From Amblyornis subalaris (lineage: Eukaryota > Chordata > Aves > Passeriformes > Ptilonorhynchidae): a stretch of DNA of 64,000 bases. Within the stretch, counting starts at the first letter, position 1. Each line of letters opens with the position of its first letter. This document shows, one piece after another, positions 20,270 through 61,683 of the stretch. The stretch is from positions 14,812,816 through 14,876,815 of the forward strand of contig JACAXG010000008.1 in NCBI GenBank assembly GCA_018881555.1. The letters run 5' to 3'. The position numbers were made by a program, and so were the translations under genes. The notes beneath the pieces are model-generated. The model had not been told where the DNA came from. It did not search any database and saw only the letters and a list, made by a program, of their open reading frames with translations.

Positions 20270-23165
20270 TAGTTTAGATCCGGAACTTGGAAATGAGTTA
20301 AACAGTTCTGTTTAACTTGGAAACTAACTTCCTTAAAGGAAAATATATATTTGTGTTCAATGTCAGCTGCATTTTCCTGCCCTCTGAACTCTAGGATAGC
20401 AGATCTCACTGTCATAAAATTTGCTGGTTTTTAAACTCACAGTTTGAAAGCCATACGGTTTCACTTTGGCTAAGTATCCTGTAATGTCAACAGCTTGCAT
20501 TTCTGACATCTTTTGTCATGGTGTAAGTATTTATGGCAACCATGTTGTGCTAGAGGGATTTTTCCCTGAAGGTCAGGACAGTTGCAGATGAAATAGCTGA
20601 TCCCTTCCTCTGCCGGTCCTTTACTGTACCTCTGCAATTTCTAATAAATATTTGCTGCTTAGAATAATTACTCTTGGAGTAATTTGACAGCACTAAATAC
20701 TGCCAACCCTAATTGTTCAAGACTTTGATTTAGCAAGTGAGGTCCTTACCTTTTGCCTTACAGTTGGGAGCCTTTTTGTGCACCTAAGTTTGCAAGGAGG
20801 ACCACTCTGCTTAACTAGGAAAACAAAATTGAATGTTCTTAGCATGAAATTCTCCTACACCCTGAAACTGAACACCATCTCTCTTCAGGTTAATACAAAA
20901 TACTGAAAGATATGGGGTAAAAATAACAGGAGTTGGAAACAACTGGCCTGGCATCTCAACTCTAATTATAACAGTGTTCAGCCAGTGCCTCCACTTGGCT
21001 TCTGTGACCAAATCAGCCAGATTGAACCAGTGCTTGGCCATTCTCCAGGTTTAGTGTGGCTCTTCTCTGGGCAAGCAGCGCCTTTCTCTTGCTGGTTCTA
21101 TGGGGAAGTCCCTCACGCAGAACAAGTTTCAGTGGATCACTTCCTCATTTTGCTTTTCTGCTTCTACTTGGCACAGGCTAAAAGTTACCAGGAGCTTGAC
21201 AACGGAGCAGTAGCTATACAGCCCTTGAACTGGAGTCAGCATGAATGCAGCTATGGCAGAGGCTGGGGGGCCTGCTCACATCAGCCGGGGGTCTGGTCCT
21301 TCCATGCAGTAGTGGTTATTCAAGGGACCAAGCAACCCCTGAGGAGCAGCTGAGTGTGATATTCCCCGTTCTCCTGGCTGCTTGGAGCATTCTGAAGCCC
21401 AGCAGGTATTTTCCATTCAGCTGTGGTAGCAGGCTGTAATAGATAAATATCTACATATTCAGCAGACTGAGCAGGAGGGTTTGTGTGTGTCTCTGTTTAG
21501 GCTGGTCTGGACTTTGTCATGTTTTGCCTCCCTTTCCAGATGCTTCCTTCTGCACTTAATAAAGTAGGGTATGGCGTCACTTTTGGTTTTGTCTTTGGAA
21601 GAATAAACAAAACAGAAGGCCAAAAGCCAGCTACTTAAAACATATTCCTCTGCTGTGACTGGGGAAAAATCTCTCCTTCAGATACAGGCATCCACTGTTT
21701 GCATTGCTCATCCTCCTGGCAGGGGTTATGGGCTTTGTCTGCCTCACTTGGTTCAAGCCTAACCTTTCTGATCTTTCTATTTTTGAAATGCCTGAAATGC
21801 TTCCTCCCACGGATCCTGGGTTCCAGCTGCTTCCCACATCTCCAGGAGATGATAAAAAAAGAACTCATCAATGGGTCAAGGTATGGTGCTGGACAAGAAT
21901 GTGCTTGGTCTTGACAGAGCTTGGTTTATCTACCAGGCACATTGTGGGCCTGGCACTGAGCTGAAAGGTAGAGGCAGAGGAATGCGTCTGCTCTCCAAGA
22001 GGAAGTAAACCTGACCAAGAAATGCAAGGCTGGGTGACTTGCACTGGGAAAGAAATTCCTCTGAGGCGGCCTGAGGTGTTGCAGGAGACTCCTAAACTTA
22101 CAGGCTTCTGATATACCTCAGAATAACTCAAAGCAGCACGTCTCAAACTTGCTGCAGTTGTAGCATCTCCCTTTTTTCTGACTTGTTGATCTACCTGCAC
22201 CTTTCTTCCCCTTTCTGCTTTCACAGGAAAAAACAAGTCACTTCCTGAAGGCTGAGCTGGGAGAGGTGGCTGTGATCACTGGGTCCTGGCTCTTCACTCC
22301 CAGAGGGTTTGCCCTGCTGCCAACAACGGCATGTTGCTGTTCCTTGTCTTCTTGGTGACTTGAATGCTTGGTGAGCTTCACCCTTGGAGTAAGCCTAAAT
22401 TGCTGAGGATTTTCTGGAGATAAAGCTTAAGCCAAAAACTGAATATGGACACTTTTTAAGGGTCAGAACGTGTTAGGAACTGGCTTATTGAATCTGTGTT
22501 TTGAGTTGAGGATTCACATCCATTTGCAAAAGACAGTGAAATATGCTCTGCTCCTCCCATTTCCCAGCACTTAATACAGTATTAAAGCTCTGTTGCAGCA
22601 GTTTGAAGGACCCACACGTAGATATAAACCATTCTATAGAGGAAATATAGTCGTGTTTATACTGCTCCCTTGTGCTGCTGGTGACTCTCCCTCTGTCGAC
22701 AAGCTCTTCATTCATTGGCATGACTGTGACAAGCCTGCTTTTAGCACTGTTTCCAAACTTAGCCAGTGCTTAGAACAGATTGTTAGAGAACAGCAACCTG
22801 GTAGTGCTAACAAGGTGAGCTCAGGGGTTGTTCTGGGCTCTCAGCCGTCTGCTGGGTCTCTTTCACCTCAGAAATAGCCTCCCCTGTTAGACCACAAAAT
22901 GCTGCAGCCAAACTGCCTCACACTGGACTGCAAGAGAGACAAGCAGCAGCTCAGAACTGGGTACCATCACGGGTTGTTTGCATTGATCCTGCTGGCATGA
23001 AGAGTGTTTACTGACACAAAGACTTGCTGCAATGTGTTTCAACAAGGGAAACACTTTCCCTTTGCTTGGCAGAACTATTCATAGCCAACTGAAAGGCTAA
23101 TTTGTTACCAGGGAGCTTGTAAGGTGTTTCTCCAGTGAATCACAAAATGGGCCAAGACTGTAAAG
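20270..23165. other. Intergenic sequence upstream of the HSF-like pair
   Basis: No gene, RNA or transposable element is recognised. An AGGTCA half-site lies near 20570. The stretch has no counterpart upstream of HSF-like copy 2, so the duplicated unit begins after it. Confidence 0.55.
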
Positions 23166-23202
23166 GTATTTCTGCAGGTGTCAGAGAGGCCCAGCTGGAG
23201 AG

Positions 23203-23518
23203 CTTCCCAAACAGGGCCCTGGGATGCCTGAGGCTGCAGCTGTCCCCACTCCTCCCTGGGGACCCACTCCTGGGTGCAGCCGGACACGGCCCAGGCCTCT
23301 CCTGGCCCACAGCCATTCAGCACAGCTCTGTGGCCACTGCTGGGCTCTGGGGTCCCACCACCAGTGGCTCTGGGAGGGAGAAGCAACAAGTGCCCTTCAG
23401 CAGTTTCTCCTCAGGCTGCTCCCCCTGCCAGGGCACCTCTGCCAGCCATCACTGAGATGTCACCTGCAATGTCCCCACTCGGCATCATGGACACCACAGT
23501 GACATGCCAGAACATTCC
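23203..23518 (+). repeat. 316-bp near-identical upstream block, copy 1
   Basis: The block is identical to 29346-29661 except for one C/T difference within 'ccggaca[c/t]ggccc'. Both copies keep the same open frames, and a MPEAAAVPTPPWGP frame in register with the downstream DNA-binding-domain frame ends at a stop (23502 here). It may be a 5' untranslated or alternative coding exon, since 'tatttctgcag' at its left could act as a splice acceptor. Its role is unknown. Confidence 0.9.
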
Positions 23519-23704
23519 CTTGGAACCTACAGTCAGTCATGGCCAGTTGGCCTTTGCCCACTCACTGGGAGAACGAGGTATGGCTGTGCAGGGGGATGGC
23601 CAATGAGGAAAGCTTCAGTCCACCTGTGATAATAGAAAACCGAGCTGATTTCTACAGAAACACCATCCCTTTCTGCTCCAGATGCACTGGGGCAGTGGGC
23701 TGAC

Positions 23705-25042
23705 ATGGCTTCTCCTGGCCTGCCAGGACAGGGGGAAACTGTGCCCTGTGACACTGCCATACAAGCGATGGAGGAGATGGGGGATGCCTGGCCTGGCAGT
23801 GACAGACACAAGACCAAACAAGGTCCTCCTGTTTCCAGTGAGAGCATGAGCAAAGACAATCGATTCTTGCCCCTCTGCTTTCCACAGAAGCTTTGGAAAA
23901 TGCTGGAAAGTGACCAGTTTCGGTCCATTTGGTGGAGTGAGGGTGGAAAATGTGTGGCCATTAATGAAGATCTCTTCAAAGTGGAGGTGCTGGGCAGGGG
24001 AGTTCGTCAGCGGGTTTTTAACACGCAGCACATCGAGAGTGTAATTCGCCAGCTGAACCTCTATGGATTCATCAAAATGCAGCGGGATTTCCAAAGATCT
24101 GCCTCCCTGCCTGAATTTCTATCAGAGGAAGCAGCAGCTTCTGCTCACAGCCAGGTACAGCAGCTGCTTTACACAGCAACCAATGCTTGTGATAGCCTTG
24201 GGGGGGAGAGGGGCTTTCACAGCAAATAAGGCCTCACCATAGAGGAGGTGGGGATGGGAGCAAGAGGTCAGGTCTTCATTTCTTCTTCAGGCCGTGCTCA
24301 GGCAGGTTTCAGTGAGTCTTTCTGACTAGTAGAAATGCAGGTAAGATACATTTTGGTGAGATCTGCTGAGTTGGAACCCATTAAAGGGACAGACTCAGTG
24401 TAATCTAATTTCTTTTAATGTCTTTGCTCTGTGTCTTGCTGTACCAAATCTGAAACGTTCCTGTGGCACCTGCCCAATGCCAAGGAGATGCATCCAAGAA
24501 CCACAGGATTATCTGCCTGCTCATAACCACACTGAAGCTTCTGAGAAATAGTGGTATTTGGCTTTTGAAAGCAGTTGTTCTGCTTTGCCCCCAGAGGGCA
24601 AAACCTTAGGGGTGNTTATGGCTGAACACAATGGTCCACATAATGCTTTAGCCTGAGCTTTAGGTTCCATATGGCCCTCAGAGTCCTTTTCCTTAACCAT
24701 GCTCCTCTTTTGCAATTCAGAGTCTTAGTTCTTGTAGTTTGGGGTTTTCCAGTCTTGGAATGGTGGCAACTAACTCTTCTCCTTTGCCTCTTTTAGATCC
24801 TCTACTACTATAACCCCAGCTTCAACAGAGCGCATCCCTGGCTGCTGGGAATGTGCAAAAGGAGAGCTGCCCTCAAGCAGAGAGGCCTGAGTGCAGCGGG
24901 GTTGGATGAAAGGCTCCTCCAGAAGCCTAGATGGTCAGTCTGGAGGGACATGCAGGTGTCTACTGAAGCCCATCCATCTCCTCTGGCAGCTGCTCCCATG
25001 CTTCCAGAGCCTGCTGGAGCACAGTATAGATTTAAAGTTTAA
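23705..25042 (+). CDS. Heat-shock-factor-like protein, HSFY/HSFX type, copy 1
   Basis: Two exons, 23705-24154 and 24797-25042, joined in phase 0 (donor CCAG|GTACAG, acceptor CTTTTAG|ATC), give 231 residues. Residues 59-130 form an HSF DNA-binding domain: FPQKLWKMLESDQF, then WWSEGGKCVAIN, then the recognition-helix signature ESVIRQLNLYGFIKM. The text before it (NRFLPLCFPQKLWK) and the FQRSASLPEFLSEE stretch after it most resemble HSFY rather than HSF1-4. Exon 2 starts ILYYYNPSFNRAHPWLL, again like HSFY. No HR-A/B trimerisation coiled coil is visible, and the protein is shorter than the roughly 400 residues of human HSFY. The start is the first ATG of the open frame; an in-frame ATG at codon 48 (MSKDNRF) or a splice onto an upstream exon is possible. 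A sequence-specific DNA-binding role, perhaps in germ cells, is inferred from the family. A polyadenylation signal lies 25 bp after the stop. Confidence 0.82.
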
Positions 25043-25066
25043 TAGACACAGCCTAATAGAGTTGAT

Positions 25067-25072
25067 AATAAA
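25067..25072 (+). terminator. Polyadenylation signal of HSF-like copy 1
   Basis: AATAAA lies 25 bp downstream of the stop codon. The matching site in copy 2 is at 31329-31334. Its presence in both copies supports real transcription units with short 3' UTRs. Confidence 0.6.
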
Positions 25073-25105
25073 CTGTTTGAACAGTAAATCTTTTCCAGTT
25101 GTCCT

Positions 25106-28100
25106 GATGTCCCCCTGCCCACTCTGCTCCCAGCATGGCTGAGTGTTCATCCTTTTAGCTTTTCCCATGTAGCACTTTGCGTGGAGACTTGATACCTTCA
25201 GCAGGGGCTGACTGATACCTCCTCTAATCTGCAGAGTGGGGACCCAGACTTAGGATATTCTGGGACAAAGACTTTTCCATAAGATTATAGGCTTAAAAGT
25301 CAAGGCCAAATGTGATCCAGCTCGGTGACCAATGTTGATTGGAAAGCAGCCTTATGGGGAGAGATGAATAATGGGAGCGTGCTCCCCTGGCACTGGTAAT
25401 ACCCACCTGCTTTGTAGGTGAGTGGTGCTGGACCATGCAGCATTACCTGCCCTGGCCAGGCCTGGCCCAGCACCAGGGTCTATGGCCCTGCCCCTGCTGG
25501 ATGTGGGCACTGGACATGTGCCCCACGGGTGAGGAATTCTGTGTTCCAAAGGTCTCAGCTGCACTCCTGTGAACTCAGCTAGTATTTTCCTAGCACCAGT
25601 TCCTGTGCACTTTGGGCTCTGGGTTGATGCAATTGTGAGTTCAGCAAAGCCTGAACTCCACTCACCCCTGCAGGCACCAGGAGAGAAAGTTCAGGGACTG
25701 AAAGCAGCCACCTGCCCTTGCTCAGCAAGATCAGCACAGCTGAGCCACCTGTGCTGGAGACATTTTAAAGGCAGTTTTGATCTACATTCCTGTAACAGAT
25801 TTTAAGATCTTATAGTGGCTTAAGACACTAGAACCAATGCAAGTAGTCAGACACAACTTTGTAGATGCCGAGAAAGCTGCTGATGCTATTCTGGCTGGAT
25901 CCAGCTTGCCAGGTTTTCTCACTCCTGAATCCTTCTCCTCCCTTAGGATAGTTCTGGAAACTGTAGGCATGTATGTGCTCCCTTTACTACCACTCTCTTG
26001 GATAGCTGAAGAACTTGATAGCTTCACAGAGGGAGTAGCAGTGCATTCCTCTGGTGCTGCAGCATATGTCCCCTTGTCACCATTCCCGTCAGCACTTCAG
26101 CTGTATGGATGAGCAGTGAAAGTAGTACAAATCCACTGCAAAGACAAGACAGCAAATAAAATAAGGCATTGCAAATAACAGGCTCTGCCTAGCAGATGCT
26201 TCAGATCTGAAGCAGAAATATTTTCTCTTGGTGTCCCAGGCAGCTCCAGAGCCCAGGCTTTGCAGCCCCTTGGCTTTACAACAGCAAGGACCCTCTGCAT
26301 GCTGAGGAGGGGTGAGGGCTCCCCCAGCCCTGTCAGCAGTTTCTTCTTGTTGCTATAATCAGCTCGTGTCACTTTCCTCCCTCTTTTCAAGGCTCTGATA
26401 ACAAGCACCTGGGGCAGCCAGGTGACCTTTGGCTGAGCTTCCTCTTTAAACTCCCATGGCGTTTGCTTCATTGCCTGGTTGTTACGCAGCAGTAAAGATC
26501 TGTTCTGATAGCAGCAGAGGCTGCTCTCTTTCCCTTCTTATGCAGCATCAAAGCTCTCTGAATTTGCTTGAACAAATTTGCATTCAGGTCAGGACTTACT
26601 TAAGAAAAAGTGGGTTTTTTTCTCATGTCTTTTTCTTAACTCCGTAAGGAAGGGTAATAAGCACAAAAGCAGGTGGGAGAAAAAAATTGTGGGCTATAAA
26701 TAAATAGATTTGGCACACAGGGGAGGACAAAGTCATTAGTAACAGGAAAAATAACGGATGTGGCAGCAAGCTACATCTTCAGCTGGTATCAAGCAGCCTC
26801 TACCCATGGAAGAAATGGGGCCATGTCACTGTCATCAGCTGTGCTGCTTGGTGGACCTGGTCCCTTCTCCAGTGCCTAACTTTGTCTGCAGCTGCCTTCT
26901 TCCACAGCAGCAGCAAGGGAGGTTGGACAACAACTCTCTGGGCTACCAATCTTCATCTGCATTTTTTGGCTCCTTGTAGCCATGTGCTTAGGCTGCCTGT
27001 GCTCTCTGGATGCAAAATGCCAATAACAGGGTGGCTGTCACATCCCAGATGGTCATTTTGACATAAGCCAAAGCATTGCAGTGTCGGTGGCCTGCCTCCA
27101 TCTCTAGGGTGTATTGGGATGGGACACAAACAGCTGTGGAAGAGCCATGCTGGGATAATGGTGATCATGGAGACAGGATGACGTTGTTCGGAGAACGCTG
27201 CTAGCAACTGGGAGACCTGGGTGTAGTTGCTGGTTCCATCTTAGCTTGTGTGCATTGCCTACACCAACTCCAAGTCTCTGGGAGGTTCCTCTGTAGAGGG
27301 CAAATACTTCTTCCCACCACTGGTCTTGTTGAGAACATCAGCTTTTCCAGAAAAAGCCTTGTGGTGGCTTTCTGAAGCCTTGTATGCTGTCCCTCAGTTG
27401 GAATATTCTTAGAACTGCAAAGGTATGTGTAGAGACTGGTGTGCTCAGGACACGTGAGAACTGGGGTTTGCAATATAGAACTGGTAAACATTAAGTTTAG
27501 TTGCTAAACTTAGACCCACTCACTCTAGAGAGAAATTCAGGGCTTTATGAATTGGGCTTGAAGTCAAAGGTTAACTGTAATTTCATGCAAGAGCAACTCA
27601 CCTGAATTCTGATGCTCTGCAATAGCTTTTGCTGCTTTGCAGCATGCAGGGATCACAGCCTTGGCAGGGCTGGCAATGCAAGGCTCTGTCGATGTGACAC
27701 AGGTGGCAGATCCTGGGGCTTCTGGTCTCTGCCTGATTCACAGTGATACAAATAAGCCCAGGGAAGGACTTGCTGAGAATTACTAGATAATATCTAGGTT
27801 GCAAGCTGGGAAGTGGCATTTGAAAGAGGCGAGCTCAGCGCTTTTCTCACCCAGAGTTATGGTATTCTTCACAAAGAAGCTGCCTAGATTGGCCTGAATT
27901 ATCTCTAAGGAAGCTGTATTGTATATTATCCCGTTTTCCTGCCCCTTTTTCCCTCCTGAGCCAAGGGAGGCTGTTTGAGGCCCCAGCCTGCCACCCTGTG
28001 GCCATCTGAAGGACGGCAGGAGTCCCTCCAGCCGCGGTGACAGCGGGGTGACAGGACATGGCCTGAGGTCCGCTTCCCCGGCTGAGCGTCAGGAAGGGGC

Positions 28101-29310
28101 TGGCTCCCAGGGCCACCGTTTCTGAGGGATTGGAAAAATCCCATCCTGCCCCAACCGAGGGCAGGTAACTTCACAAAGGTGTTTAAATGGCTGAACTGGG
28201 CTATTCAAGACTCTGTCACCTCCACTACTGGACCCAATTTTTTTTCCCCCTTGACATGAATATTATTTAATTCTTTTCCTTTTGACATTTGTTCTGGACT
28301 CCCACAGGTGAGAGTGTCTCACCAATGAGCTGCTGTCACCTCTGGCTGTTGGTGTTGTGCAGTGGCACCCCAGGGTAGAGGACTTGGTAAGCAAAGGTAA
28401 AAAAAAAATCCATGGCCACCATAGATGCTGCTAGTTAATATCTAAAGGCAAGTTGGGCTGGTTTTTTGGGTTGTGGAATCCTTCAATTAAAACAAATGTT
28501 CCCATTTCCTGCTTTTATAAGTGGGAGTGCAATCACAACGTGTTTCTGGTTTTGTATTTCTCTAAAATGGATTGTACAAGATTCTTCCAGGCCTCGGGCA
28601 TATTTAGCATCATGTATATCTTCTTTTTTATTTCTGTGCAGAAAAAAAAAAGCCAATACTCAAATGCCAAAGAATTTAATGAGAAACAGGTCAGGCCATG
28701 CTGGAAATTGCTTCAGATTTCCAGATCTAAAATCCACAGCTATGTGGGCAGAAAGGCCACATGTGAGGGAGGAATGCATCTCTTCAGACTCAGCAACTCA
28801 AAGGGCAGGGAGGAATGCAGAGCTTTTCAGGCACACAAACACCCTTGAACCAGCAGACTGTCTACTGTGGGATGGCAGTGCAGCAGGGAGAAGGCTGGAT
28901 AGCTTCCCTGAGAAGACCAGTTCATGGGATTGTGTTCACGGCTCTGCATTTATGAACAAAGATGGAGTGCTTCAGATAAAGTGAACCAGCACATCTCCTG
29001 ACCAGATGGCTTGAGTAAGGCCTTGGGCTTTGCTCCCCCAGCCCCCGATTGCTGGGCCATTCATGTGTGGAGAGAAAGCCACTGCTTTTGGGTCTCCTGC
29101 CAGAAATGAAGTGTGTCCCCTGGTCCATCTCTCCCAGCTGGTTTGAAACCCACTAGTTAAAAATAGAAAAGTGCAATCCTGTTCAAGCAGTTTGCAAGGA
29201 CAATGGGTTGACATCAAGGAATCCCTGCTGCTTTGGGGCAGGGGATATCAGGAAGAGGACTCTCTATACTGGAGCTGCTGCTTCTGCATTGCAGTGCTCC
29301 AGGGAGCCAC
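25106..29310. other. Spacer between the two HSF-like units
   Basis: About 4.2 kb separates the units and shows no remnant of a third HSF-like copy. It contains an inverted AGTTCA pair with an 8-bp spacer (25638-25657). The longest open frame here (28466-28984, 172 codons) has a low-complexity composition, no recognisable domain and no conserved neighbour, so it is not called as a gene. Confidence 0.6.
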
Positions 29311-29345
29311 GTTTCTGCAGGTATCAGATGAGCCCAGCTGGAAAC

Positions 29346-29661
29346 CTTCCCAAACAGGGCCCTGGGATGCCTGAGGCTGCAGCTGTCCCCACTCCTCCCT
29401 GGGGACCCACTCCTGGGTGCAGCCGGACATGGCCCAGGCCTCTCCTGGCCCACAGCCATTCAGCACAGCTCTGTGGCCACTGCTGGGCTCTGGGGTCCCA
29501 CCACCAGTGGCTCTGGGAGGGAGAAGCAACAAGTGCCCTTCAGCAGTTTCTCCTCAGGCTGCTCCCCCTGCCAGGGCACCTCTGCCAGCCATCACTGAGA
29601 TGTCACCTGCAATGTCCCCACTCGGCATCATGGACACCACAGTGACATGCCAGAACATTCC
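29346..29661 (+). repeat. 316-bp near-identical upstream block, copy 2
   Basis: It matches 23203-23518 at 315 of 316 positions. Identity drops abruptly at the right edge: the next 75 bp before the start codon are only moderately alike. The in-frame stop for the MPEAAAVP frame falls at 29643-29645, as in copy 1. Confidence 0.9.
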
Positions 29662-29738
29662 ATTGGAACCTGCAGTCTGTTGGTGCCAGTTGGCCTTTGC
29701 CTGCCGGCTGGTAGGACACAGCCAAGCTGTCCAGGGCG

Positions 29739-31222
29739 ATGGCCATGGAGGGAGAGTTCTCGTTCCTGCTCTTTCCACAAAAGCTTTGGAAAATGCTGGA
29801 AAGCAGCAAGTTTCGGTCAATTTGGTGGAGTGAGGGTGGAAAATGTGTGGCCATCAACAAAGATCTCTTTGAAGTGGAGGTGCTGGGCAGGAAAGGACAG
29901 CAGGTCTTTCACACACAGAAAATGAAAAGTTTCATGCGACAGCTGAATGCATATGGATTCACCAAAATGCAGCGGGATTTCCAAAGATCTGCCTCCCTGC
30001 CCGAATTCCTGGCAGAGGAAGTAGCAGCTGCTGCTCACAGCCAGGTACAGCAGCTGCTCTGCACAGTAACTAATGCTTGTGATAGTCTTAGGGGAGAGAG
30101 GGACCTTCATGGCAAATAAGGCCTCGTCATAGAGGGCCATTTGTGGGTGGAGAAGCAGCTACTTTTTGTAGGAGGGCTTATAAAATGGAGAGAGGGGGAC
30201 TTTTTATACAGGGAGAGAGTGACAGGACAAGGGACAATAGTTGTATAGTGAAATAGGGCAGATTAGTTTAGATTGTATGTTAGGAAGGTTACTGTGAAGA
30301 CAGTGAGACACTGGCACAGGTTGCCCAAAGAGTGGATGCCCCGTCCCTGGAAGCATTCAAGGCCAGGCTGGATGGGGCTCTGAGAATCTTGATCTAGTGA
30401 GTGGCATCGCTGCCCAAGGCAGGGGTTTTGGAACTAGATGATCTTTAAGATCCCTTCCAACCCAAACCATTCTGTGATAGAGAAGATGGGGATGGGAGCG
30501 AGAGGTCTGGTTTTCATTTCCTTCTCAGGCTGTGCTCAGGCAGGTTTCAGTGAGTCTTTCTGACTAGTAGAAATGCAGGTAAGATACATTTTGGTGAGAT
30601 CTGCTGAGTTGGAACCCATTAAAGGGGCAGACAGACTCAGCATAACCTGATTTCTCTGAATGTCTGCTCTGTGTCTTGCTGTACCAAATCTGAAATCCTC
30701 CTGTGGCACCTGTCCAACGGCAAGCAGATGCATCCAAGAACCACAAGATTATCTGCCTGCTCATATCTGCATTGAATGTGCTGAGAAATAGTTTTGGTTT
30801 TTGAAAGCAGTTGTTCTTTTGAAAATCCTACACTGCTCTGCTCTCAGAAGGCAAAACCCCAGGGGTGGCGATGACTGAACACAACCACCACATAATGCTT
30901 TAGCCTGAGCTTTAGGTTCTATACAGCCCTCTGGGTCCATGATCCTCTTTTGCAATTCGGAGTAACTTGTTTTCCGGTCTTAGGATGCTGGCATCTAACT
31001 CTTCTCCTTTGCCTGTTTTAGATCCTCTACTACTATAACCCCAGCTTCAACAGAGCACATCCCTGGCTGCTGGAAGCGTGCAAGAGGAGAGGTGTCCTCA
31101 AACATAGAGGCCCAGATGGAGAAAAGATGGATGAAAGGCCCCTCAGAAGCCCAGACAGTCAAACTGAGCTTCATGGGCAAACAGGCCTGGGCTTCACACA
31201 GGCACCTGATAGAGAGAGCTGA
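29739..31222 (+). CDS. Heat-shock-factor-like protein, HSFY/HSFX type, copy 2
   Basis: Exons 29739-30044 and 31022-31222 join in phase 0 at the same sites as copy 1 (CCAG|GTACAG, TGTTTTAG|ATC) and give 168 residues. The DNA-binding domain is complete: FPQKLWKMLESSKF at residues 12-25, WWSEGGKCVAIN at 29-40, recognition helix KSFMRQLNAYGFTKM at 63-77. Its helix (SFMRQLN) is closer to the general HSF consensus (SFVRQLN) than copy 1's. The N-terminus is short because about 170 bp present in copy 1 is missing; the start MAMEGEFSFL is therefore new. A one-base difference after MDERPL shifts the tail frame relative to copy 1, ending PDRES. No trimerisation domain is seen. Expression is unproven, but both splice sites, the open frame and the polyadenylation signal are intact. 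The stop lies about 650 bp upstream of the POC1A start codon on the same strand. Confidence 0.78.
30135..30478 (+). mobile_element. CR1 LINE 3' fragment in the intron of HSF-like copy 2
   Basis: The sequence has the standard CR1 tail: 'gcactggcacaggttgccc', 'ggaagcattcaaggcc', 'ggctggatggggct', 'gaactagatgatct', 'cccttccaacccaaacc', ending 'attctgtgat'. It is flanked by ATAGAG at 30129-30134 and 30477-30482, while copy 1 has a single ATAGAG at 24239-24244. The paralogue therefore shows the empty site, and the insertion followed the duplication. Confidence 0.88.
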
Positions 31223-31328
31223 GTTGATGGCCAGTCCACAGTGTCTAATTAATAGTGCTGTTTGTAGATCGAGCTGAGTAGAGTTGGAAGAAATAGATCT
31301 TAGTTGCGTTGGTATTAAATCGTTGAAG

Positions 31329-31334
31329 AATAAA
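31329..31334 (+). terminator. Polyadenylation signal of HSF-like copy 2
   Basis: AATAAA lies about 107 bp after the stop codon, within sequence homologous to the copy 1 signal, and is followed by the shared TCAGTTGTCCTG stretch. Confidence 0.55.
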
Positions 31335-31872
31335 CCTTTCTCAGTTGTCCTGTGCTCCTTGCACAAACCCAGGGTGAGTTCCTATTTTGAACACCCGGAG
31401 GCCAAGCAGAAACAACTGATCTGCCACCAGCTGAAGGGCAGATGGGATCAGCCTGGGTTGTTAGCCCTACAGAGCACGAGCTCATGGTGCCCACTGGCTG
31501 AGACAAGGGGATCGCCTCCATCAGGCCCTGGAGCCATCCAGCCCCACGATCAGGAGTAAGGCAAAGGCAAAGGAGTCGGGTGGTTGAGCACTGAACAGGC
31601 TCCTCAGGGAGCGGCCGCAAGCCTGCCGGAGTAACTGAAATAACAGCGCGGGAAGCAGCTTTCCCTAACGCCCTGAGCCCCCTGACGGGGCCGGCCGTGC
31701 TCAGAGGAACCGGCTTCCACGGCACGGGATCGGTCCAGAGCCCTGAGGAGCGGCCCCGCAGCGGCCATGGCGGCCCCGCGGCGCCTCTGAGGCCGGGCCC
31801 GCCCCTCGCAGGGCGGGGCCGTTGCTACGGGGCGCGCGCGGCGCGGGAACCGAACGGCGGCCGCGGGGCGTC

Positions 31873-61683
<29,811 letters not shown>

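Follow-up and report, generated by a model that had tools for sequence, protein, structure and literature searches.

HSFY, a branch of the heat shock factors (HSFs), is known chiefly from mammalian Y chromosomes and sperm production, and HSF1-HSF4 carry heptad-repeat (HR) trimerisation domains. According to the respective papers, HSFY of cattle has two exons and is testis-specific (PMC3049798), the mammalian X and Y copies of the family separated within the therian ancestor (PMC3477149), and HSFY kept a testis-specific pattern that was inferred from its autosomal counterparts in Anolis, platypus and chicken (PMC7674692). It is also reported that human HSFY2 binds ungapped arrays (PMC11267843) and that HSF5 has a role in germ cells (PMC11059408), while a 2025 review names HR domains for HSFs and limits high-confidence HSFX and HSFY to mammals (PMC12366260). 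Here, a tandem pair of HSF genes, A and B, is described in a window of 64 kb, that is, the whole stretch of DNA analysed, from the bowerbird Amblyornis subalaris (GenBank contig JACAXG010000008.1). The window sits in a contig of 16.5 Mb (C648) of a genome of 1.084 Gb in 820 contigs. We lean towards the reading that A and B are functional autosomal HSFY genes, which would have arisen by a tandem duplication in early passerines, been cut to the DNA-binding domain (DBD), undergone gene conversion around distinct recognition halves, and served as site-occupying factors of germ cells.

With HSFY, the two genes share the DBD, a QRSASLxEFL-type stretch in its wing, the placement in the tree, and a single intron within the DBD ahead of its last strand. 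Unlike HSFY, they have autosomal neighbours, stand as a tandem pair, code for short proteins (231 and 168-170 aa) without the CPxCxC tail, and differ from each other in the recognition half of the domain. HSF5 is similar to A and B in the fold of the DBD, but it belongs to a different family, has its own locus (contig C304), and does not show the HSFY wing stretch when aligned. HSF1-HSF4 share the fold and the recognition-helix core, whereas A and B leave little room for a heptad-repeat trimerisation domain. The nearest outside relatives of the pair are HSFY-like proteins of non-passerine birds (e.g. Mycteria P0006 and Aquila P0010). The genes as such are not wholly new, since bird genes named HSFY-like are already in databases; a search of one library of open-access literature found no paper on the passerine HSFY pair.

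Structure of the pair and kinship with HSFY

Both genes lie head to tail on the plus strand and have two coding exons each, with splice and polyadenylation signals, which confirms what the preliminary description of this DNA had proposed. Exon 1 of gene A (23705-24154, ATG at 23705) codes for the N-terminus and most of the DBD and ends at the donor CAG/GTACAG. The following intron (24155-24796; 642 bp, GT-AG, phase 0) precedes the last DBD strand and ends at the acceptor CTCTTTTAG/ATC, and exon 2 (24797-25042) holds the end of the domain and a short tail, with the stop TAA and an AATAAA at 25067. In gene B, exon 1 (29739-30044) starts with the ATG at 29739 or 29745 and has the same donor, CAG/GTACAG. 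Its intron (30045-31021; 977 bp, GT-AG, acceptor CTGTTTTAG/ATC) is about 0.3 kb longer than that of A and holds an inserted stretch at about 30146-30476, which we take to resemble the end of bird CR1. Exon 2 (31022-31222) closes with TGA, followed by ATTAAA at 31314 and AATAAA at 31329. Both acceptors end in TTTTAG, and in-frame stops stand upstream of both starts, at 23633 in A and 29712 in B. The protein lengths given before, 231 aa for A and 168 aa for B, are correct, with B reaching 170 aa from the upstream in-frame ATG. The DBD is complete in each, as positions 1-100 of 100 of the Pfam profile HSF_DNA-bind (PF00447) are covered in both A (E 9.8e-21) and B (E 1.8e-23). Only 58 (A) and 43 (B) residues are left C-terminal of this match, in agreement with the earlier remark that no trimerisation domain is visible; this is little space for an HSF1-type heptad-repeat domain together with an activation domain. 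Open frames by themselves are weak evidence here, as 3324 of 127448 positions in the window begin an open frame of 92 codons, and the case is carried by the protein matches.

These matches point to the HSFY family as a whole. Searching with protein A gave 97 proteins, with protein B 121 (120 listed), and with an alignment 380 (120 listed), and the listed ones were nearly all HSFY/HSFX-named vertebrate proteins, one exception in the search with A being a spider protein (P0097). The taxa among the matches listed include rays, coelacanth, salamander, frogs, caecilian, turtles, crocodilian, squamates, tuatara, ratites, ducks, Neoaves, monotremes, marsupials and placentals. In a tree of 37 rows and 188 columns, with the root set on the ray, the branching follows the order of species, with mammals at 97/92, sauropsids at 99/97 and birds at 98/94. 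Within birds, ratites branch first, then two further loci of the same genome, on contigs C689 and C780 (100/98; C780 on a long branch), and then ducks with Neoaves (99/94), while A and B of the window group together (96/93). The QRSASLxEFL-type stretch, chosen by us as a marker of HSFY, occurs in A, in B and in 228 of the 267 fetched proteins (a single regular expression, 39 misses), and is absent from the HSF5 row of the alignment. Finally, the intron inside the DBD has the identical position in A, B and the C780 gene. The resemblance to HSFY/HSFX that had been noted is thus borne out by the homologue lists and the tree, and comparison with bird proteins gave HSFY-like relatives in ratites, ducks, Neoaves and passerines. 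On the other hand, the suggestion of a lineage-specific gain does not hold for the HSFY family, since homologues extend from rays and coelacanth to mammals in a tree of species order, although the locus itself may have been gained in some bird lineage. The restricted features, in our sample, are the duplication into A and B, which was found in passerines only, and the truncation.

Loss of the tail and age of the duplication

Judging from the alignments, HSFY is an old family of jawed vertebrates, and its tail is strongly conserved. The ancestral-type protein is long, about 350-450 aa, and its C-terminal tail carries NPWFSMPMIAAASA and HCPNCNC from rays to emu. Over the same range, the last ~90 residues are strikingly conserved, in the form YPDL...LLPFCNPWFSMPMIAAASA...HCPNCNC... 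(P0181, P0182, P0190, P0192, P0195, P0193, P0248, P0259); we know of no description of this end as a module, no search for it having been made. Most of the longer Neoaves proteins aligned retain a degraded form of the tail (HCPTCTC). The CPxCxC pattern was found in 54 of the 267 fetched proteins and in none of the 17 listed passerine ones, many fetched records being partial and so unable to show it, and it is absent from A and B. The non-passerine bird HSFY-like proteins examined retain the tail, whereas protein A ends just past the PLPEPAGA-like stretch (PLAAAPMLPEPAGA) and protein B ends earlier. Apart from the stretch already within exon 2 of A, a search of the window gave no trace of the lost tail. 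The tail is not required for the name HSFY, because the placental proteins P0064, P0069 and P0239 also lack it. At the other end, A retains the N-terminal region of non-passerine bird HSFY-like proteins from residue 16 on (57% identity), besides part of the C-terminal proline-rich stretch. The start of that region in other birds (a Calidris-like MSNEESF) lies out of frame in A at about 23600, so A uses a downstream ATG. Both proteins consist of a DNA-binding domain and little else.

The age of the duplication was approached with a tree of 92 rows and 64 columns, which covers the N-terminal half of the DBD and in which the bootstrap had not settled. The B clade (96/92) holds 25 rows, 9 of them suboscine, and the A clade (90/74) holds 24 rows, 12 of them suboscine, together with the New Zealand wren Acanthisitta. 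Among the proteins sampled, the duplication is restricted to passerines and, as each clade contains both suboscines and oscines, it predates the split between these two groups. An origin before the New Zealand wren lineage is weakly supported by the same tree. Predicted A and B proteins on equal-sized contigs suggest that the pair is also tandem in Formicarius, Pitta sordida and the vinous-throated parrotbill.

Some of the predicted passerine proteins have unusual structures. The protein P0015 of Coccothraustes coccothraustes is A-type through QRVF and B-type from the recognition helix onward, and such a mosaic may come from a conversion tract that ends at the helix or from a gene model with a false intron. 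Five others (P0005, P0008, P0009, P0026 and P0096) have a common predicted first exon (MDHPQ/EVLE/ALEGYKPRV...) that is like the exon-2 tail of duck HSFY, an indication that other passerines have a third copy as a relic. A third copy of this exon-2 type, the first exon of crow, jay and manakin models, was also sought in our window, where the best match (E 0.36) was unconvincing.

Divergence between the copies and possible explanations

The similarity of A and B is distributed unevenly along their length. A 5′ flanking block of gene A (23169-23536, plus strand) has a near-identical copy ahead of gene B (29312-29679, plus strand), with 97.3% identity (358/368) and 299 of 300 positions identical in its core (23214-23513). 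Identity is 85.1% in the DBD part of exon 1, 87.8% in the intron and 66.5% in exon 2. In codon counts, dS amounts to 0.477 up to the YGF motif and to 0.161 after it (including the first 30 codons of exon 2), with 0.133 in the intron, and dN/dS is 0.28 up to YGF, 0.50 after it and 0.37 overall, dN reaching or exceeding dS in 1 of 500 bootstraps. Fisher tests on rounded counts separate the recognition part from the wing part (p 0.037) and from the intron (p 1.7e-4), and the 5′ core from the intron (p 1.3e-12). A similar pattern was present in predicted proteins of other passerines. In the N part, 7 of 8 pairs had a distance between their own A and B above the A-A mean, and all 8 had one above the B-B mean; with exon 1 only, the counts were 8 of 9 (one tie) and 9 of 9, respectively. 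In the C part, 7 of 8 pairs had a distance smaller than both means; Lonchura was the exception, and there the annotated exon 2 of B extends into the intron. The pairs are not all independent, as three or four of them were put together from two genera or fall within one family (crow family, woodcreepers, manakins and Manacus). A complete separation of A rows from B rows was seen at only two sites, residues 109 and 113 in the numbering of A, and both lie in the recognition-helix region. At residue 109, the commonest states are H, S or R in A and K, Q or N in B; at residue 113, A has V or I and B has F, and A would be the derived copy there, because F is found in most other HSFY proteins aligned. 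The contrast between the N and C parts in this comparison of sites was reached in 14 of 10000 permutations.

With regard to the mechanism, the pair could have originated early in passerine evolution by tandem duplication from a long ancestral HSFY protein, of which hardly more than the HSF DNA-binding domain would have been kept. Gene conversion would hold the flanks, the intron and the wing half of A and B alike, while selection would hold the recognition halves apart, so that the two proteins would read somewhat different TTC/GAA-type sites. The recognition-helix core RQLN.YGF is retained in both, and A and B may be nuclear factors that occupy such sites. Male germ cells would be the likely place of their production, since HSFY is testis-specific in cattle and in the state reconstructed from before the sex chromosomes, and by this analogy testis expression of A and B is plausible. 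Lacking the oligomerisation and tail regions, they would probably be small site-occupying factors in competition with the larger HSF5, HSF2 and HSF1, or modulators of these, and not heat-inducible activators; this is the mechanism we prefer. In a bolder and more tentative extension of the same idea, conversion would have homogenised the promoter flank, intron and wing half over tens of millions of years around a helix shielded by selection. The outcome would be two regulators of the germ line under common control but with different DNA targets, and the pair would be the autosomal equivalent of the Y-linked HSFY arrays amplified in cattle and pigs.

Several observations weigh against the functional reading. 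A dN/dS of 0.5 after YGF and of 0.62 in exon 2 indicates weak constraint there. In the C part, the comparison with exon 1 only is mixed: 6 of 9 pairs (one tie) have a distance between their own A and B that is smaller than the A-A mean, though all 9 have one smaller than the B-B mean. The contrast of sites is partly circular, because A and B were assigned by a tree built on that N half itself. On 64 columns, the A clade (90/74) and the joint clade of A and B (82/58) are weakly supported, and three suboscine B rows sit among oscine ones. The homologues were predicted automatically, with a bias of databases towards intact ones. The paralogues of the same genome, on C689 and C780, show degeneration or loss of the recognition arginine, and the reading is built on sequences and predicted models.

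Alternatively, the pair could be a decaying, unexpressed remnant, with the tail lost in passerines and the copies persisting through short time or through refreshment by conversion. The missing tail, the frameshifted ancestral N-terminus of A, the two other degenerate HSFY-like loci and the weak constraint on exon 2 would all agree with such a fate. We nevertheless consider it unlikely, as both copies have kept open frames and splice sites, the recognition half has a dN/dS of 0.28, and predicted B-type proteins are present in 25 rows across suboscines and oscines. More room is left for the possibility that the difference in the recognition half is an accident of where conversion tracts end, without selection for different DNA targets. 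Conversion tracts are naturally patchy, the comparison at the DNA level comes from one genome, and the mixed result with exon 1 only fits as well. It is harder to reconcile such an accident with distances in the N part that exceed the B-B mean in 8/8 and 9/9 pairs from families long diverged, or with the fact that the helix region contains both sites of complete A/B difference, and we regard it as possible but somewhat doubtful.

A different question is whether A and B are relatives of HSF5 or HSF1-4 instead of HSFY. Gene B is identical at 114 of 116 residues to a satin bowerbird protein (P0098), and the AlphaFold models of this bowerbird B (mean pLDDT 79.6) and of a parrotbill A (77.6) both have the winged-helix order, with exon 2 coding for the last strand. 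The best match of the bowerbird B model is HSF5 (8zys_F; TM 0.94 by target length, rmsd 1.5), followed by HSF1, HSF2 and HSF4 complexes, and HSF5 is also the best solved-structure match of the pair (E 5.7e-11); however, there is no solved HSFY structure among these matches. The HSF5 row likewise stood among HSFY rows, beside coelacanth, in the unconstrained 92-row tree, where few sequences represented HSF1-5 (three short rows: HSF5, HSF2 and fly HSF). Constraining the 89 HSFY rows together against these three changed the likelihood by +5.49, with p-AU 0.616, and HSF5 is a separate locus of the same genome with a one-exon DBD (C304). Such an affiliation, already disfavoured, is therefore very improbable.

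Genomic surroundings and significance

The pair is placed between ALAS1 and POC1A, as had been stated before. To the left, on the minus strand, lie the 5′ exons of an ALAS gene (1298-2470; presequence segments 2372-2470 and 1298-1504), recognised by the Pfam profile Preseq_ALAS (PF09029; 1.3e-14 and 6.3e-21), with the 5′ head of the gene pointing toward the HSF pair. The name ALAS1, rather than ALAS2, follows from gene order; these exons had no NCBIfam match, and a query with an ALAS1 catalytic-domain sequence had no match in the window, which carries 5′ exons only. To the right, on the plus strand, a WD40 exon region (33774-33995) was recognised by Pfam and had a POC1 homologue among its 595 PDB matches. 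It fits POC1A, although the domain alone does not name the gene and the name leans partly on gene order. ALAS1 and POC1A are presumably autosomal in birds. The 5′ block of the pair was also considered as a dispersed repeat, which was ruled out since a search of the genome gave only the two places 23169-23536 and 29312-29679, and no structured RNA in Rfam matched positions 22000-33000 at the gathering threshold.

Elsewhere in the genome, C780 holds a two-exon HSFY-like gene (3341112-3342653; L010:212-805 and ~1142-1753) with a GTACGT donor, a CAG acceptor and the same intron position as A and B. Its CPTCTC tail is present and its recognition arginine is lost (MRGFLLQLMFHGF); it adjoins a gene that we take to be SRSF4-like. 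On C689, an HSFY-like relic exon (L011:9283-9867, minus strand) has in-frame stops upstream of the domain and a ratite-like N-terminus, and what is presumably an ITPKB-like first exon (L024:4551-5693) lies within ~16 kb of it. Besides an intact-looking HSF5 exon on C304 (L015), HSF5-like fragments were found on a contig of 32 kb (C710; L013:9541-9828 and L014:892-1017), and these could perhaps be a second copy of HSF5 or a relic.

Within the family, passerines have a tandem and cut-down version of HSFY, presumably autosomal. If the recognition helices are indeed held apart against conversion, the pair would be a natural test of the binding and the germ-cell role of HSFY-type proteins, away from the repetitive Y chromosome, which has made this question hard to approach.

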